Origin: Ruminococcus sp.
Lineage (GTDB): Bacteria > Bacillota > Clostridia > Oscillospirales > Ruminococcaceae
Assembly (NCBI GenBank): GCA_017437285.1
Contig: JAFSBM010000177.1
Location: 1 to 42,432 of the forward strand
Direction of reading: 5' to 3'
DNA: 42,432 nucleotides
Part shown: positions 37,553 to 42,432 of the stretch, piece by piece
Numbering within the stretch: position 1 is the first letter of the stretch
How the letters are laid out: each line of letters starts with the position of its first letter
Made by a program: the position numbers and the translations under genes
Notes under the pieces: generated by a model
What the model was told of the DNA's origin: nothing
Seen by the model: the letters and a program-made list of their open reading frames with translations, nothing else
The model's database searches: none

Positions 37553-37831
37553 ATACTGATATTAGCTTCTCAATATATCGCACTTTCATCGACAGGATGC
37601 GCCGATTTCGTCAATATGCACAAAAATATAGTGCAGCGTTATAAACCGCTGATTGTTTCGTTTGAATTGGATTATTCGCATATCGAGATTATCCCGCAAC
37701 AACGTTATTTTCAACTCTTCGCAGAACAAATCGCATGTATCCGATGGCTTCGATAAACCCATATATTTCGGCATATTGCTCATCTTTTGTGCATTTTTTT
37801 CAGCTGCGAATATTTCGTATGTATTGGAATC
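37553..37831. other. Intergenic stretch without a recognisable gene
   Basis: This 279-base stretch lies between the DUF11 terminator and the promoter of the peptide locus. Both strands have short open frames: 37586-37783 on the minus strand, and a plus frame without a start reading FVNMHKNIVQRYKPLIVSFE. None has a ribosome site or a family I can name. It could be a worn gene remnant left at the edge of a transferred segment. Confidence 0.5.
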
Positions 37832-37860
37832 TTGACTTTTTCGTCATGTTGTGCTATAAT
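37832..37860 (+). promoter_or_regulatory. Promoter of the Cys-rich peptide locus
   Basis: TTGACT (37832-37837), 17 bases, and a perfect TATAAT (37855-37860). Transcription would start near 37867, leaving a leader of about 58 bases before the first peptide gene. Confidence 0.75.
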
Positions 37861-37924
37861 ATCATTAATTCTACAGCATAAGCGTTTGCTAGGTGCTGTA
37901 AATAAAAGACAAGGGGTGCTTTTC

Positions 37925-38089
37925 ATGATTACATATGACACAAGCGACTACTCAAAGATGCTCGGCAATATCGCTGTAGAGTCTGTGAACGCAGTTTCTT
38001 GCATGGGACAGTGTACAGGTTGTAAGTGTAGCTGTAAGTGTTCCTGTAGAAACAGAGAAGTAGATACTTTTGAATGGGAGGAATTCTAA
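37925..38089 (+). CDS. Cys-rich RiPP precursor peptide A
   Basis: This encodes a 54-residue peptide. The first 25 residues form a leader with DYSKMLGNI (residues 8-16). The core has seven cysteines at 26, 30, 33, 35, 37, 39 and 41 (CMGQCTGCKCSCKCSC), with Lys, Ser, Gly and Thr as spacers. A short acidic/aromatic tail ends FEWEEF. AAGGGG (37911-37916) is placed for the ATG at 37925. Its stop overlaps the next ATG. A radical SAM/SPASM maturase gene follows, so thioether (ranthipeptide/sactipeptide-like) bridges on the core are likely. A metallothionein-like metal-binding peptide is the main alternative. Confidence 0.85.
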   Translation: MITYDTSDYSKMLGNIAVESVNAVSCMGQCTGCKCSCKCSCRNREVDTFEWEEF

Positions 38090-38247
38090 TGAGCGCTAAT
38101 ATCAACGATTATCTTGAAATGTTTGGAAACATTGACGAGCATAATATGGCTATGGCTAAGTGTGCATGCGTTGCTTGCAATTCTTGTACTTGTGCATGCT
38201 CTTGTCGTGCTGTGCCTGAGTTTGAGGATGGAGAATTAGAATGGTAA
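38089..38247 (+). CDS. Cys-rich RiPP precursor peptide B
   Basis: This encodes a 52-residue peptide that is a diverged copy of peptide A. The leader contains DYLEMFGNI (residues 7-15), matching DYSKMLGNI in A. The core has seven cysteines at 25, 27, 30, 33, 35, 37 and 39 (CACVACNSCTCACSC), with Ala, Ser, Thr and Asn spacers, so the ring spacing differs at the first cysteine while the C-x-C-x-C-x-C end is the same. The tail ends DGELEW. GGGAGG (38077-38082) lies before the ATG, which overlaps the stop of A; the 3' end overlaps the maturase start by 7 bases. Shared leader plus varied core is typical of two precursors served by one enzyme. Confidence 0.85.
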   Translation: MSANINDYLEMFGNIDEHNMAMAKCACVACNSCTCACSCRAVPEFEDGELEW

Positions 38248-39647
38248 GAATATCTCGTTTTACACATGTGTATGATGTCGGAACTGCAGTGGCTCTATAC
38301 CACTCACTTCGAATGAAACCCGTGTATCTTTCACGAGATGTCTATGAGAGCTTGCAAACATGGGTTGCAAGCTCTTGTTGTAATAGGATAGAAGATGCAC
38401 CTGAATCTATTGCTAATGAAGTAGCAGAACTTGCTCGATGGAAGATCCTCACACAAACAGACGATGAGGATGACAAGGTTCTTCGGTTTGTAAAATCAAG
38501 AGTACCTGCTCCAGCGATAAACATTTGCTATTTTATTTTAAGCGAACAATGCAACCTTGCTTGCAAATACTGTTTCCTTGGTAACAATGACTCAAACAAA
38601 CGTCATAATTTTTCATCAGAGAACATGACTGTTGAAACTGCAGATAAAGCTATTGACTTCTTTGTTAAACAAATGAAAGAGTCAGGACTAGATAGTGAAG
38701 AAAACCAAGCCGCTATCATTTTTTATGGTGGCGAACCAATGGTAAACTATGATGTACTCAAATATGTTGCCACAAAAATAAATAGTATGCGGTCTACTGT
38801 TAAATGCTTAAGAAATGCTGAAATGTCAATGGTTACAAATGGATTGCTTCTGAACGAAGAACGCATATTAGAGCTGCAGAAATTAGGAGTTTCTATTGCT
38901 ATATCCATAGATGGTGTTACCGAAGAAGCGAACGCCATGCGTGTAGATGTAGCTGGCAATCCAGTATTTGATCGAATCCTTAAAACACTTAATCAATGCA
39001 AAAAAATAGGTGCGAATGTTTCTCTCTCGGTTACACTAAGTGAAGAAACTGTGAAGGATACGCAAAATGTACTCAAATTGATTGACGAATACGGTATTAA
39101 ATCACTCGGTTTTAATATTATGATGTCTAGTGATACTTTTGTGTTGCCGCAAAGCTATAACGAACAGGCGGCTCAATTCATCATCGATGAATTTGTTGAA
39201 CTCAGAAAAAGAGGCATATATGAAGATCGAATGATGCGTAAACTCAAGGCATTCACTAAAGCACAAGTTTATTTTTCTGATTGTGGTGCAACAGGTGGTG
39301 GTCAAATCGTTATCTCCCCGAACGGACAAGTCGGAATTTGTCATGGATGTTTATTTGATAAGAAATACTTTGTATCCGATATCGAAGATAAAGATTTTAT
39401 TGCGATTAATGATCCCACTTTCATTGAATGGTCAAGATTAACACCATTGAATAATGAAGAATGTTATTCCTGTCCAGCTCTTGGCATCTGTGGCGGTGGA
39501 TGTCCCATAAATGCTATGTATCTCAAGCCTGGAAATTCAATTCATTCCCTTGACGAGCGTTTTTGTGTTCATTCGAAAAAGACACTTGAATTCTTTATAC
39601 ACGATCTTTACAGAGTAATCACGAAGGGCAGTGATTGCGATGAGTGA
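38241..39647 (+). CDS. Radical SAM/SPASM peptide maturase
   Basis: This encodes a 468-residue protein. The N-terminal 90 residues (HVYDVGTAVALYHSL) look like the leader-handling region of peptide maturases. The radical SAM cluster motif is Cys104, Cys108 and Cys111 (SEQCNLACKYCFLGN), followed by IIFYGGEPMVNYD. A C-terminal SPASM domain starts at Cys348 (CGATGGGQIVISPNGQVG) and continues CHGC, CYSC, GICGGGCP and a last FC, enough for auxiliary Fe-S clusters. In the known SCIFF/ranthipeptide, sactipeptide and Clo7bot-type systems such enzymes link Cys sulfur to a carbon of another residue; which bond is made here is not visible. Codon use is AT-rich, with many CAA and AGA codons. Confidence 0.92.
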   Translation: MVRISRFTHVYDVGTAVALYHSLRMKPVYLSRDVYESLQTWVASSCCNRIEDAPESIANEVAELARWKILTQTDDEDDKVLRFVKSRVPAPAINICYFILSEQCNLACKYCFLGNNDSNKRHNFSSENMTVETADKAIDFFVKQMKESGLDSEENQAAIIFYGGEPMVNYDVLKYVATKINSMRSTVKCLRNAEMSMVTNGLLLNEERILELQKLGVSIAISIDGVTEEANAMRVDVAGNPVFDRILKTLNQCKKIGANVSLSVTLSEETVKDTQNVLKLIDEYGIKSLGFNIMMSSDTFVLPQSYNEQAAQFIIDEFVELRKRGIYEDRMMRKLKAFTKAQVYFSDCGATGGGQIVISPNGQVGICHGCLFDKKYFVSDIEDKDFIAINDPTFIEWSRLTPLNNEECYSCPALGICGGGCPINAMYLKPGNSIHSLDERFCVHSKKTLEFFIHDLYRVITKGSDCDE

Positions 39648-41781
39648 TACAATCGATATTTGGGGAATTGAAACTAACAACCTTAAAAGTATAGACGTTA
39701 GTCTTACCAAACACGCTATAAATCTAATTATCGGACCATCGGGCAGCGGAAAATCATCGCTGGCTTATGACACGATTGCACAAATAGGACAGCATGAGTT
39801 TTTATCAATGTTTTCTGATGATATGTCTGATCCAACATATAAAGTTAAAGGCTTTCGTAATATGGTCACAGCCGTTCCGATAAAGCAATCAAACTATAAT
39901 AATAATGTTAGGTCTACAATAGGTACATATTTCGGGTTAAGTCGATACATTGGTTTTATCTTCTCTGTGCTTTCAGGTTTAAGTGAAGAGTTTTTTGTCT
40001 TGAACAAAGAAAGTAATCTTTGCGAAACGTGTCATGGCTTAGGAATAATCAGGGAACTTGATGTGAATAAACTCATCAGTTTCAATACGAAATTAAAGGA
40101 CGACCCTGTAAGGTGTTGGGATCGTTATAAGGATTTTTATCGCAAAATTATTGTTGAATTTTGCAAAGAAACCGGTATTGATGCTGACAAAACTTTCAGG
40201 GAGCTGACTAAAAAGGAACGACACACTTTTTTATACGGGGAAAGTCAAACAAAATACAAAATAACCTATCGAAAAGTCAATTCAAACGCAAGTCGCACTA
40301 CAAGATATTTCGGAGTTATGCTTCAAAAACCTCTTATTGTAGGGGCAGGTATCAGTGATAAGTATTATTCGGATACCATATGCCCCTGCTGTTTAGGGAA
40401 AAAATATGCTGTCTCTCATGAATCAGTAAAAGTGCAAGGATTATCAATTGGAGAATACATGGTCACACCGTTTTCTGATTTGATTAAAATAAATCAAAAT
40501 ATAAAAAAATCAGAAAAAAACAGCTCTTTGGATTTTGCTTTTGATATTATTGATTCTTTTTTGAAAAGAGCAATCGAATTTAATCTTGGACATCTGTTTT
40601 TTAACCGGTCAATCCCAACGCTCTCAGGTGGAGAACTTCAAAGGCTACGCATGGTGCAAGTATTTAATACTCAATTATCTGATTTGATGATCATTCTCGA
40701 TGAACCGTTAGGTGGTTTATCAGGCAACGAAAGAAAGAAGATATATGATAGCATAGTTGATCTAGCCGATAAGCACACTCTTGTCATTGTCGATCACAGT
40801 GATATTTTTGTTAATTCCGCAGTAAACATATTTGCTCTTGGAGAGAAAAGCGGTAAAAATGGCGGGAGACTAATAAATCCTAAAGAATACTTATCTTCTC
40901 AAAGAAACTTATTTTACCAAGCGCCACAAACAGTAGGAAATGCTATAAAGGTATCAATTGATAGCCAGATATATCAATATCAGGGAGTAGATCTCGAACT
41001 TGCGGAGAATAGTCTTAATCTAATTACTGGTGCATCTGGAGTCGGTAAATCGACTTTAATACGTGAGTACTTTCCACAATTTTTTGAAAGTTATTCTTAT
41101 GTCAATCAACGTCCGATTCATGGAAATAAGAATTCTAATGTAGCAACAGCACTTGAAATTTCCACTGAAGTATTTAGCACTTATGCAAAGAAATTCAAGA
41201 AAGATAAAAATTATTTTTCGAACATCTCCGGAAATGAAGGCTGTTGTTCTACTTGTTCAGGGGCTGGTTTTATTGAATATGGTAGCGATAAAACATCATT
41301 CATTCGGTTAGAATGTGCCGAGTGTCATGGAACTGGATTTAACTCCACACTTGTAAAGCATAAGATAAACGGAAAATCTATTTTTGACGTTTGGAAAATG
41401 ACAGTCGACGAAGCGTACGCATTTTTTAATAAGGTAAATCCTAAAATATCTAATGCTTTACTTGAAGCTTCATCAATTCTGCTTGGGCACTTAATTATAG
41501 GCCAACCAACTTCTTCTTTATCAGGAGGAGAAAACATTAGAATAAAACTTCTCAAATTGCGGTCATCACGAGCAACTGTAATAGGTGTGGATGAACCTTT
41601 TAAGGGATTGAGTATTACAGAAATTCATAGTGTTGTCGCTTATCTTGTATCAATGCTTAATAAAGGAAAAACGATTGTTGTTATCGATCATAATGAGCAA
41701 GCATTTCCATATTTTTCCAAAAGGATTCATCTCATAAACAATGATGGAGTGTTAAAAGGAACTAATCGATTTTCAGGTTAA
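39640..41781 (+). CDS. UvrA-like twin ABC ATPase linked to the peptide locus
   Basis: This encodes a 713-residue UvrA paralogue, shorter than true UvrA (about 940). Both ATPase units are present: Walker A GPSGSGKSS (from Gly32) with LSGGELQRLR (from 328) and ILDEP near 350, and Walker A GASGVGKST (from 464) with LSGGENIRIK (from 627) and VDEP. UvrA-type zinc modules are seen: CETC (128-131) with CPCC (248-251), and CCSTC (535-539) with CAECHG (559-564). A normal UvrB-binding region is not evident. Relatives such as DrrC and Ecm16 protect antibiotic makers from DNA-binding products, so self-immunity is one idea. I prefer the ATG at 39640, after AAGGGC, to the GTG at 39631. It overlaps the maturase by 8 bases. 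Confidence 0.88.
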   Translation: MSDTIDIWGIETNNLKSIDVSLTKHAINLIIGPSGSGKSSLAYDTIAQIGQHEFLSMFSDDMSDPTYKVKGFRNMVTAVPIKQSNYNNNVRSTIGTYFGLSRYIGFIFSVLSGLSEEFFVLNKESNLCETCHGLGIIRELDVNKLISFNTKLKDDPVRCWDRYKDFYRKIIVEFCKETGIDADKTFRELTKKERHTFLYGESQTKYKITYRKVNSNASRTTRYFGVMLQKPLIVGAGISDKYYSDTICPCCLGKKYAVSHESVKVQGLSIGEYMVTPFSDLIKINQNIKKSEKNSSLDFAFDIIDSFLKRAIEFNLGHLFFNRSIPTLSGGELQRLRMVQVFNTQLSDLMIILDEPLGGLSGNERKKIYDSIVDLADKHTLVIVDHSDIFVNSAVNIFALGEKSGKNGGRLINPKEYLSSQRNLFYQAPQTVGNAIKVSIDSQIYQYQGVDLELAENSLNLITGASGVGKSTLIREYFPQFFESYSYVNQRPIHGNKNSNVATALEISTEVFSTYAKKFKKDKNYFSNISGNEGCCSTCSGAGFIEYGSDKTSFIRLECAECHGTGFNSTLVKHKINGKSIFDVWKMTVDEAYAFFNKVNPKISNALLEASSILLGHLIIGQPTSSLSGGENIRIKLLKLRSSRATVIGVDEPFKGLSITEIHSVVAYLVSMLNKGKTIVVIDHNEQAFPYFSKRIHLINNDGVLKGTNRFSG

Positions 41782-41822
41782 GACTCTGGTTTGTCTATTC
41801 ACCTACAATCACATACTTATGG

Positions 41823-41853
41823 AACACAGCTTTTTATTAAGCTGTGTTTTTTT
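41823..41853. terminator. Bidirectional terminator between the peptide locus and the DUF6076 gene
   Basis: A 10-bp stem AACACAGCTT (41823-41832) with AAGCTGTGTT (41839-41848), then seven T on the plus strand. On the minus strand the stem is also followed by a T-poor but usable sequence. It ends at the stop of the convergent gene. Confidence 0.85.
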
Positions 41854-42432
41854 AATCCCCTAAAACAATCTTCTCAAACCTCTCCCCCGAAATCTCCCCA
41901 CAAAGATAAGCCCTCCGAGCCGCCTGAGCTTGCATCAGCCATGCGGTATACTGTTCAAAAGACATATCCTTTTCTGTCTCTTCCCCCGGAAGCTTCCATT
42001 CGCCACGTTCAAAACGCTTGTAATTGCGGTTTTTCACACGATCATACTCCGCAAGCAGGGTGTCCTGCTGTTTCTTTAATTTTTGAATAAGCTTGGGTGC
42101 AACCTGTTTGCAGGTCTTGCCGTCCGACGTAATCACTCTGTCACAGTACAGGGTGATTTTTTTCGTTTTTGGAACAAAGAATCTGCCGCAGCACTGACAG
42201 CTGCGTATCGGCTTACCAAGCTGTGTGAAATGCAACAGCATAAATGCGTAGTAATCATCAAACCGATTGAAAAAATAGGTTTCCGATAGCCGCATTTCCG
42301 CTGAACCGATTGGATGATTAATATACTCCATCTGATAACTCCTGCGGAACAGTTCTGTTTCTGTCAACACACATTCAGCAAACCATTTCTGCACATCGTC
42401 ATACTGCTCGCACTTATGCAAAATGCGGAACA
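41852..42432 (-). CDS. DUF6076 domain protein (N terminus outside the window)
   Basis: At least 193 residues are encoded on the minus strand and the frame stays open to the window edge, so the true start is outside; a TTG at 42421 would be a false start. The zinc-finger-like segment CQCCGRFFVPKTKKITLYCD followed by a distant Cys (KTCKQ) matches DUF6076 proteins of Ruminococcus-type bacteria. The C-terminal part is helical and basic. Its function is unknown. Codon use resembles the host genes rather than the AT-rich peptide locus. Confidence 0.75.
   Translation of the reverse strand, partial: FRILHKCEQYDDVQKWFAECVLTETELFRRSYQMEYINHPIGSAEMRLSETYFFNRFDDYYAFMLLHFTQLGKPIRSCQCCGRFFVPKTKKITLYCDRVITSDGKTCKQVAPKLIQKLKKQQDTLLAEYDRVKNRNYKRFERGEWKLPGEETEKDMSFEQYTAWLMQAQAARRAYLCGEISGERFEKIVLGD

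Follow-up and report, generated by a model that had tools for sequence, protein, structure and literature searches.

Ecm16 and DrrC are UvrA-like proteins that lack a UvrB-binding domain, contain two intact sets of ATP-binding cassette (ABC) ATPase motifs and are encoded within biosynthetic cassettes, in their case those for DNA intercalators. In the excerpts of PMC10192343 used here, self-resistance is reported as experimentally confirmed for both proteins, and ATP-driven clearing is the model proposed for Ecm16 and echinomycin. Genome mining in actinobacteria has also taken uvrA-like genes as markers of natural products that bind DNA; the sections of PMC10413001 that report this count ribosomally synthesized and post-translationally modified peptides (RiPPs) among the actinobacterial clusters with uvrA-like genes and describe none of them. 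Here we examine a cassette at positions 37,832 to 41,853 of contig JAFSBM010000177.1 from Ruminococcus sp. (assembly GCA_017437285.1), in which a UvrA-like protein with the same three features is encoded behind two cysteine-rich peptides and a radical S-adenosylmethionine (SAM)/SPASM enzyme. The whole stretch of 42,432 nucleotides that was analysed is called the window below.

For the peptides and their enzyme, the closest described systems are the PapB/SCIFF-type ranthipeptide maturases (CteB, PapB), which share the radical SAM core and the SPASM domain, and the FibroRumin system, for which NCBIfam models cover the peptide and the maturase but not a UvrA-like partner. We know of no RiPP class with a UvrA-like or helicase partner, and no description of a FibroRumin peptide paired with a UvrA-like protein was found in the open-licence papers searched. 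The UvrA-like partner is a new part of the system.

Sequence comparison establishes a single operon in which FibroRumin precursors and their maturase travel together with a predicted UvrA-like ATPase that lacks the UvrB-binding domain. As to its function, we favour, tentatively, a mobile RiPP module whose product would act on intracellular DNA, with the UvrA-like ATPase recognizing and clearing the product-DNA complexes.

Organization and family assignment of the operon

The following features make up the cassette, all of them on the plus strand:

37832..37860, plus strand: sigma-70-type promoter with an extended -10 element (TTGACT-17-TATAAT, TG before the -10), 11 of 12 consensus positions
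37872..37900, plus strand: possible, weak hairpin in the 5' untranslated region (UTR), between the promoter and the ribosome-binding site
37925..38089, plus strand: precursor A, FibroRumin cysteine-rich RiPP, 54 aa; TIGR04135 69.2 bits, cut-off 45
38089..38247, plus strand: precursor B, FibroRumin cysteine-rich RiPP, 52 aa; TIGR04135 86.5 bits, cut-off 45
38241..39647, plus strand: radical SAM/SPASM maturase, 468 aa; TIGR04136 902 bits, cut-off 400
39640..41781, plus strand: UvrA-like twin ABC ATPase, 713 aa; TIGR00630 329 bits, below the cut-off of 730
41821..41853, plus strand: intrinsic terminator, a 12-bp hairpin (41821-41850) followed by a T run; fold -15.3 kcal/mol

Successive genes overlap by 1, 7 and 8 bases (coordinates verified by translation). 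Promoter, two seven-cysteine peptides, radical SAM/SPASM enzyme, UvrA paralogue and terminator are one compact unit with no transporter or protease inside it, as an earlier note on this DNA had described. We regard the open reading frames (ORFs) as real genes because the peptide and maturase scores far exceed the family cut-offs and all four have relatives elsewhere. The terminator was not among the results of the pattern scan; it was folding that gave the 12-bp hairpin and the U run. Promoter-like sites show no excess in the region (10 observed versus 16.8 expected). The promoter is taken to belong to the unit because DNA homology to a Ruminococcus relative, locus L022 (75% over window positions 37784-41721), already starts about 50 bases 5' of it, and stops near the 3' end of the UvrA-like gene. 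Across 22 loci, window included, the best promoter site within 130 bases 5' of the first precursor matches 9 to 11 of the 12 positions (10 or 11 in 17 loci; 9, a weak match, in five), these scores having no shuffled control. The UTR hairpin has a z-score of -1.62 in the window and a similar shape in L021, L022 and L023 (-1.93, -0.87 and -0.32); the 5' UTR of L034 folds into a different hairpin (-2.14), and none that convinces was found in L033 or L024. Directly after the cassette, on the opposite strand, lies a DUF6076 gene (41852-42421).

Both peptides and the maturase score above the FibroRumin cut-offs of NCBIfam. Judged by these profiles, the peptide and maturase families are already named and the peptide family is not new, which sets aside the new RiPP class proposed in the earlier note. 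Among the 25 best models for the maturase, TIGR04136 alone exceeds its cut-off, so that no family tied to another type of product does. The kinship with SCIFF or Clo7bot that had been suggested fell away as well: the enzyme reaches 119 bits against the SCIFF model TIGR03974 (cut-off 425), 73 bits against the Clo7bot model TIGR04334 (cut-off 600) and 101 bits against the CcpM model TIGR04068 (cut-off 500), and membership in all three was rejected because the scores are far below the cut-offs. The second-best model is PapB-type (141 bits, cut-off 340); the FibroRumin maturase thus differs from the PapB/SCIFF-type enzymes in lying well below their family cut-offs, and the precursors have no match to the SCIFF or PapB-type precursor models of NCBIfam.

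The CxxxCxxC motif is invariant in all 26 aligned maturase rows. The structure model of the enzyme (predicted local distance difference test, pLDDT, 91.8) has TigE and CteB as leading structure matches, the CteB structure 5wgg being among the top ones, and its N-terminal strands and helices resemble a precursor-binding RiPP recognition element. The product may carry ranthipeptide-type chemistry, a suggestion drawn from the kinship of the enzyme.

The UvrA-like protein

The best NCBIfam model for the fourth gene (best 25 of 199 rows) is the general UvrA model TIGR00630, and the UvrA DNA-binding domain PF17755 is present at 43.9 bits (cut-off 23.2), in agreement with the UvrA-like twin ATPase read earlier from this gene. 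Its best sequence match among solved structures, at 245 bits, is 7sh1, that is Ecm16, named as the echinomycin resistance protein in the excerpts of PMC10192343. Across the 17 aligned rows, that of the window among them, both copies of the Walker A motif, of the LSGGE signature, of the Walker B motif DEP and of the switch histidine are unchanged, and so are eight zinc cysteines, which in the window protein are residues 128, 131, 248, 251, 536, 539, 559 and 562. Their spacings, of which the one spanning the insertion domain is 117 residues and that within module 3 is 20, are identical to those of Ecm16 (C176, C179, C296, C299, C589, C592, C612 and C615); the UvrA of locus L031 has a few additional residues in this insertion-domain/zinc-module spacing. 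About 150 residues are absent at the UvrB-binding region, where query residues 108-114 cover 113-263 of Thermotoga maritima UvrA (3pih), a stretch that we take to be the UvrB-binding domain. Like Ecm16, the predicted protein retains zinc modules 2 and 3 as well as the insertion domain, which is equally long in the two. In its structure model (pLDDT 87.7), Ecm16 gives the highest target TM-score, 0.82, among the 50 Foldseek rows listed, with 23% identity in the structural alignment. The window protein differs from Ecm16 and DrrC in that its cassette partner is a ribosomal cysteine-rich peptide and most of the groove residues named for Ecm16 have no clear basic counterpart.

A role in canonical excision repair was rejected: the protein is below the TIGR00630 cut-off, has no UvrB-binding domain, and all carriers searched have another UvrA homologue. 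Such a homologue was found in the window's own genome and in 13 of 13 other searched genomes with a cassette UvrA (including G827, whose copy is gapped); hence, the cassette UvrA is an extra one.

Linkage and distribution

Genome contigs were scanned with the maturase by way of short peptide patterns, an approach biased towards close relatives. It yielded 28 loci; identity is 57-88% in 18 of these, L021-L038. Since the query was the maturase and not the UvrA-like protein, the presence of the latter is an independent observation. Of the 18 close loci, 17 have a UvrA-like gene immediately 3' of the maturase gene, at distances from an overlap up to 169 bases; the remaining locus, L036, stops inside the maturase. 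The cassette is also carried by the Campylobacter plasmid NZ_CP012551.1, where the UvrA-like product is annotated as a hypothetical protein. Counting the 17 loci, the window and this plasmid, the maturase is followed by the UvrA-like gene in 19 of 19 assessable cassettes, and the association with the peptides seen in the window thus recurs in related genomes. On this point, as on the maturase models, the conditions that the earlier note had named for its own refutation turned out to favour it. A damaged UvrA in the Fretibacterium locus L026 was considered and rejected: after about 142 residues the frame enters an N gap of the assembly, and no mutation is involved.

By record title, the source of all taxonomic labels here (several carriers are metagenome bins), the carriers include Ruminococcus, Lachnospiraceae, Fretibacterium, a Spirochaetes bin, a Bacteroidales bin, Coriobacteriales and Kosakonia. 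The cassette spans several phyla of gut and mouth bacteria and is not special to a rumen bacterium, the setting in which the earlier note had found the pairing unusual. The Kosakonia cassette gave no match in a megablast search against E. coli genomes.

Occurrence is sporadic. Two of 391 genomes of the class, and 2 of 394 of the order, have a TIGR04136 match over the cut-off, the window's own genome being counted in each. In the order sample (apparently the same draw for both counts), a UvrA of at least 815 bits is found in exactly two genomes, the same two that have the maturase, while nine others have UvrA homologues at only 241-269 bits. Among 15 genomes searched for UvrA relatives, 12 have a cassette UvrA of at least 815 bits and G827 has the gap-interrupted copy; the remaining two, G273 and the genome of locus L039, have TIGR04136 maturases (460 and 485 bits for L039's genome and G273) and no cassette UvrA. 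Pairwise identities of UvrA and of the maturase, compared as matrices for 17 loci, are correlated (r = 0.63), and none of 2000 permutations reached this value.

The two precursor peptides

Each precursor has seven cysteines, which confirms the earlier count. The core of precursor A follows the pattern C-x3-C-x2-C-x-C-x-C-x-C-x-C, and the core of precursor B is CACVACNSCTCACSC. Over 16 two-peptide loci, mean core identity is 94.8% for B and 79.3% for A, compared with 66.3% for the maturase (14 rows), 57.9% for UvrA (12 rows) and, in gapped alignment, 45.9% and 34.9% for the leaders of B and A. Excluded from this core count are L021, which nearly duplicates L022, the four loci with a fused precursor (L033-L035 and L037) and the divergent pair of G273. 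The ratio of nonsynonymous to synonymous differences (pN/pS) is 0.07 for core B and 0.13 for core A over the same 16 loci, compared with 0.27 in the maturase and 0.35 in UvrA, synonymous sites being nearly saturated and the pairs not independent; the leader values, 0.59 and 0.76, were obtained by ungapped alignment and are too high. All seven cysteines of core B are kept in 17 of 17 two-peptide loci. Going by these alignments, the pattern of core conservation is the opposite of that of a diversifying bacteriocin. Near-invariance holds for the cassette proper, the G273 cores being less alike.

Separate A and B cores occur in 17 loci, and G273 has a divergent pair in which fewer cysteine positions are kept. 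L033, L034, L035 and L037 have a single fused precursor, with a core of the B type ahead of one of the A type (CRCVACNRCSC and CISQCTGC in L034); the fused precursor of L034 scores 32 bits, below the TIGR04135 cut-off of 45. That some loci have both cores in one precursor suggests that peptides A and B would act together, as a pair.

Two further observations concern the precursors. In L023, precursor B is separated from the maturase by a remnant of a third precursor (2837-2988) with a broken frame, possibly an assembly error. Beside the more distant maturases of L040 and L047, the precursor is single and has 10 (L040, 75-314) or 12 (L047, 5483-5734) cysteines, with no UvrA-like gene within the fetched flanks.

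Mobility and module exchange

In several loci, the cassette is richer in AT than a control region of the host (GC content 32 versus 54% in L038, 47 versus 63% in L032, 38 versus 58% in L033 and 46 versus 66% in L027), and the window genes have 35-41% GC versus 45% upstream. In L023 and L028, cassette and flanks are equal, and L031 is slightly richer in GC than its control region. Among flank ORFs of at least 60 aa in 20 loci, no family is common to more than four (the flanks of L021, L024, L025, L036 and the window are shorter than 1 kb on at least one side). The commonest is the plasmid recombination enzyme Mob_Pre, in four loci; a recombinase, recognized by sequence reading, and the neighbours that co-occur in three Ruminococcus loci are found in three loci each. 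MobA/MobL and relaxase models are also matched by flank proteins, and the Campylobacter plasmid has a mobilization gene. Since no flank family is widely common, the conserved unit seems to consist of just these four genes and to include neither an exporter nor a protease.

Modules have also been exchanged. Between L034 and R. albus 8 (L021), UvrA identity is 92% but maturase identity only 65%, and the L034 maturase is nearer to that of L037 (70%). L034 and L035 (5798-9526) thus present a natural module swap, a fused precursor and its maturase joined to the UvrA of the two-peptide Ruminococcus type, and identity shifts at the maturase-UvrA border in this lineage. One type of UvrA apparently serves both types of precursor, which points to a probable common product or target for the two-peptide and fused forms.

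Related operons with other enzymes or partners

In L039 (Desulfosporosinus) and L090 (in G273), the two loci with a TIGR04136 maturase and no cassette UvrA, a ResIII/DEAD-type helicase gene (about 810 aa) lies directly upstream of the precursors. The two helicases are 51% identical, and an HNH domain is above its cut-off in one of them. In L039 (2954-13129), the FibroRumin locus sits between the ResIII/HNH helicase gene and the Wadjet genes jetABC; in L090 (1294-6062), the helicase gene of the same family precedes the divergent A and B peptides. A predicted DNA-acting ATPase hence adjoins the peptides in both the UvrA and the helicase forms. A search for the helicase at E 1e-100 or better found only G273 among 291 genomes of the class. 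Five distant members (30-39% identity) have no FibroRumin-like peptide in their annotation or ORF list; near one of them (L143:4763-9041), the opposite strand encodes a radical SAM/SPASM-like protein at a distance of about 0.6 kb (TIGR04053 111 bits, cut-off 395). That the helicase family is exclusive to RiPPs was rejected, since distant members lack such a peptide and two loci are few.

Operons of another composition were found on two plasmids:

L123:5502-10097, ThiF-peptide-UvrA operon, NZ_CP010358.1, Acinetobacter johnsonii plasmid
L124:3550-8154, ThiF-peptide-UvrA operon, NZ_CP024445.1, Moraxella osloensis plasmid

Their order is a peptide (66 or 63 aa, with 5 or 4 cysteines), two ThiF proteins and a UvrA-like protein. 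As in the FibroRumin cassette, a cysteine-containing peptide and modification-type enzymes are followed by a UvrA-like ATPase, the nearest to the cassette UvrA; they differ in that two ThiF-family enzymes replace the radical SAM enzyme and the peptide sequence is unrelated. One ThiF protein bears a weak resemblance, at 46 bits against a cut-off of 188, to a SagC-type peptide maturase component. The peptides, which have no NCBIfam match, are putative RiPP precursors.

Relationships were examined in a tree of 18 cassette UvrAs, the two from ThiF operons, 15 UvrA2-like, 12 canonical and 2 other UvrA rows; it is unrooted and Ecm16 is not included, so that nearest means nearest in the sample. The 18 cassette UvrAs form a single group with support 100/100, separate from the UvrA2-like rows, one of which is annotated as DrrC, and the two ThiF-operon UvrAs join this group, again with 100/100. 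In an earlier tree with one ThiF row, its branch was 2.3 changes per column long; the second member confirmed the grouping at full support, and a long-branch artefact was rejected.

Discussion

In the mechanism that we favour, the SPASM enzyme would install thioether or related links on both cysteine-rich peptides, and the mature peptides, working as a pair, would act on DNA inside the cell. A dimer of the UvrA-like protein would then recognize the DNA-bound product and clear it using ATP, probably without recourse to UvrB, and so protect the carrier. By analogy with Ecm16, self-protection would be the best-precedented role, and defence its main rival, favoured by the absence of export. The earlier note had proposed a DNA-related target or immunity; the link to such a function has gained indirect support, while DNA as the target of the peptides is still something that we infer.

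Several observations weigh against this mechanism. Foldseek ranks canonical UvrA chains first and places Ecm16 22nd by E-value. Of the ten Ecm16 groove residues named in the excerpts of PMC10192343, two have a clear basic counterpart (K381 and K572, in an alignment read by eye), the UvrA-like protein having further basic stretches besides these. Nine distant loci, L040-L048, are without a cassette UvrA within the fetched flanks, and all are below the TIGR04136 cut-off (eight at 242 to 365 bits; L048, whose frame is broken, at 113 bits for its first piece); L039 and L090, which exceed that cut-off, lack it too. Finally, near-invariant cores and the absence of an exporter or protease suit an intracellular product better than an antibiotic of the classical kind, which weakens the analogy with self-resistance.

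A wider proposal, speculative and in its entirety somewhat unlikely, is that a dedicated clade of short UvrA-like proteins serves cysteine-containing modified peptides from at least two unrelated chemistries (radical SAM and ThiF/E1). Such operons would be intracellular mobile modules, their peptides DNA ligands, their role anti-phage, anti-plasmid or one of addiction, and the UvrA-like proteins and helicases alternative partners.

Of the rivals to self-protection, an anti-phage or anti-plasmid module holds up best, even if we consider it unlikely. Here the UvrA-like protein, or the helicase, would sense foreign or distorted DNA, with the peptides as effector or bound cofactor. The lack of an exporter or protease, the near-invariant cores, the mobile contexts and the helicase gene in both UvrA-less loci would all suit this role, and so would some of the neighbours: type I restriction-modification genes begin 8 bases after UvrA in L027, AbiL and AbiEi lie in the flanks of L029 and L032, Wadjet JetABC adjoins L039, and the Acinetobacter ThiF operon follows the BREX genes pglZ and brxL. 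However, among the matches listed, named defence genes occur at 3 of 15 cassette loci versus at least 1 of 13 control regions, the latter yielding a mad5 match as well as one or more type I specificity subunits. The cassette count comes from 85 of 97 flank ORFs scanned in a pool, with 10 proteins of five loci traced singly, and the control count from 84 ORFs of 13 regions hand-placed in the same genomes, with the best 25 family rows in both. These counts do not establish an enrichment in defence islands: the neighbours are suggestive, but the control count comes too close. PADLOC, run on the UvrA-like protein, returns generic ATPase models only. Viral contigs scanned with the maturase, the UvrA-like protein, the UvrA alignment and the core-B pattern gave no cassette and one 26% relative, L147, among the matches listed, and phage records gave distant relatives and no close one; a phage-borne cassette was rejected for this reason, a result that says little about defence.

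Alternatively, the peptides could be no toxin but a conserved metal-binding or redox cofactor, CxC-rich and metallothionein-like, which the UvrA-like ATPase would use or deliver on DNA. The identity of core B over several phyla, its low pN/pS near synonymous saturation and the retention of its seven cysteines in every two-peptide locus are consistent with such a function and unlike a diversifying bacteriocin. We nevertheless find it quite unlikely, since a cofactor would not usually occur so sporadically and be moved laterally (2 of 391 genomes of the class), the flanks have no further gene widely in common, and the divergent G273 peptides keep fewer cysteine positions. An ordinary secreted ranthipeptide-like bacteriocin, with the UvrA-like ATPase as exporter or passenger, is very unlikely: such SPASM maturases often yield thioether peptides and the PapB-type model comes second for this one, but the UvrA-type zinc modules and insertion domain are invariant in 17 rows, no transporter-permease model is among the 25 best Pfam rows for the UvrA-like protein, linkage in 19 of 19 cassettes does not fit a passenger, and no gene beyond the four is present in more than 4 of 20 flanks.

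The loci described here provide a short list of cassettes suited to testing, among them precursors that are fused in nature and one lineage with a swapped module. Cores that hardly vary speak against bacteriocin as the default label for the FibroRumin family, and the strict linkage of a UvrA-like protein to a peptide of ribosomal origin, among anaerobes as well as on a plasmid, leads to the concrete and cheaply testable prediction that FibroRumin peptides would act on DNA.

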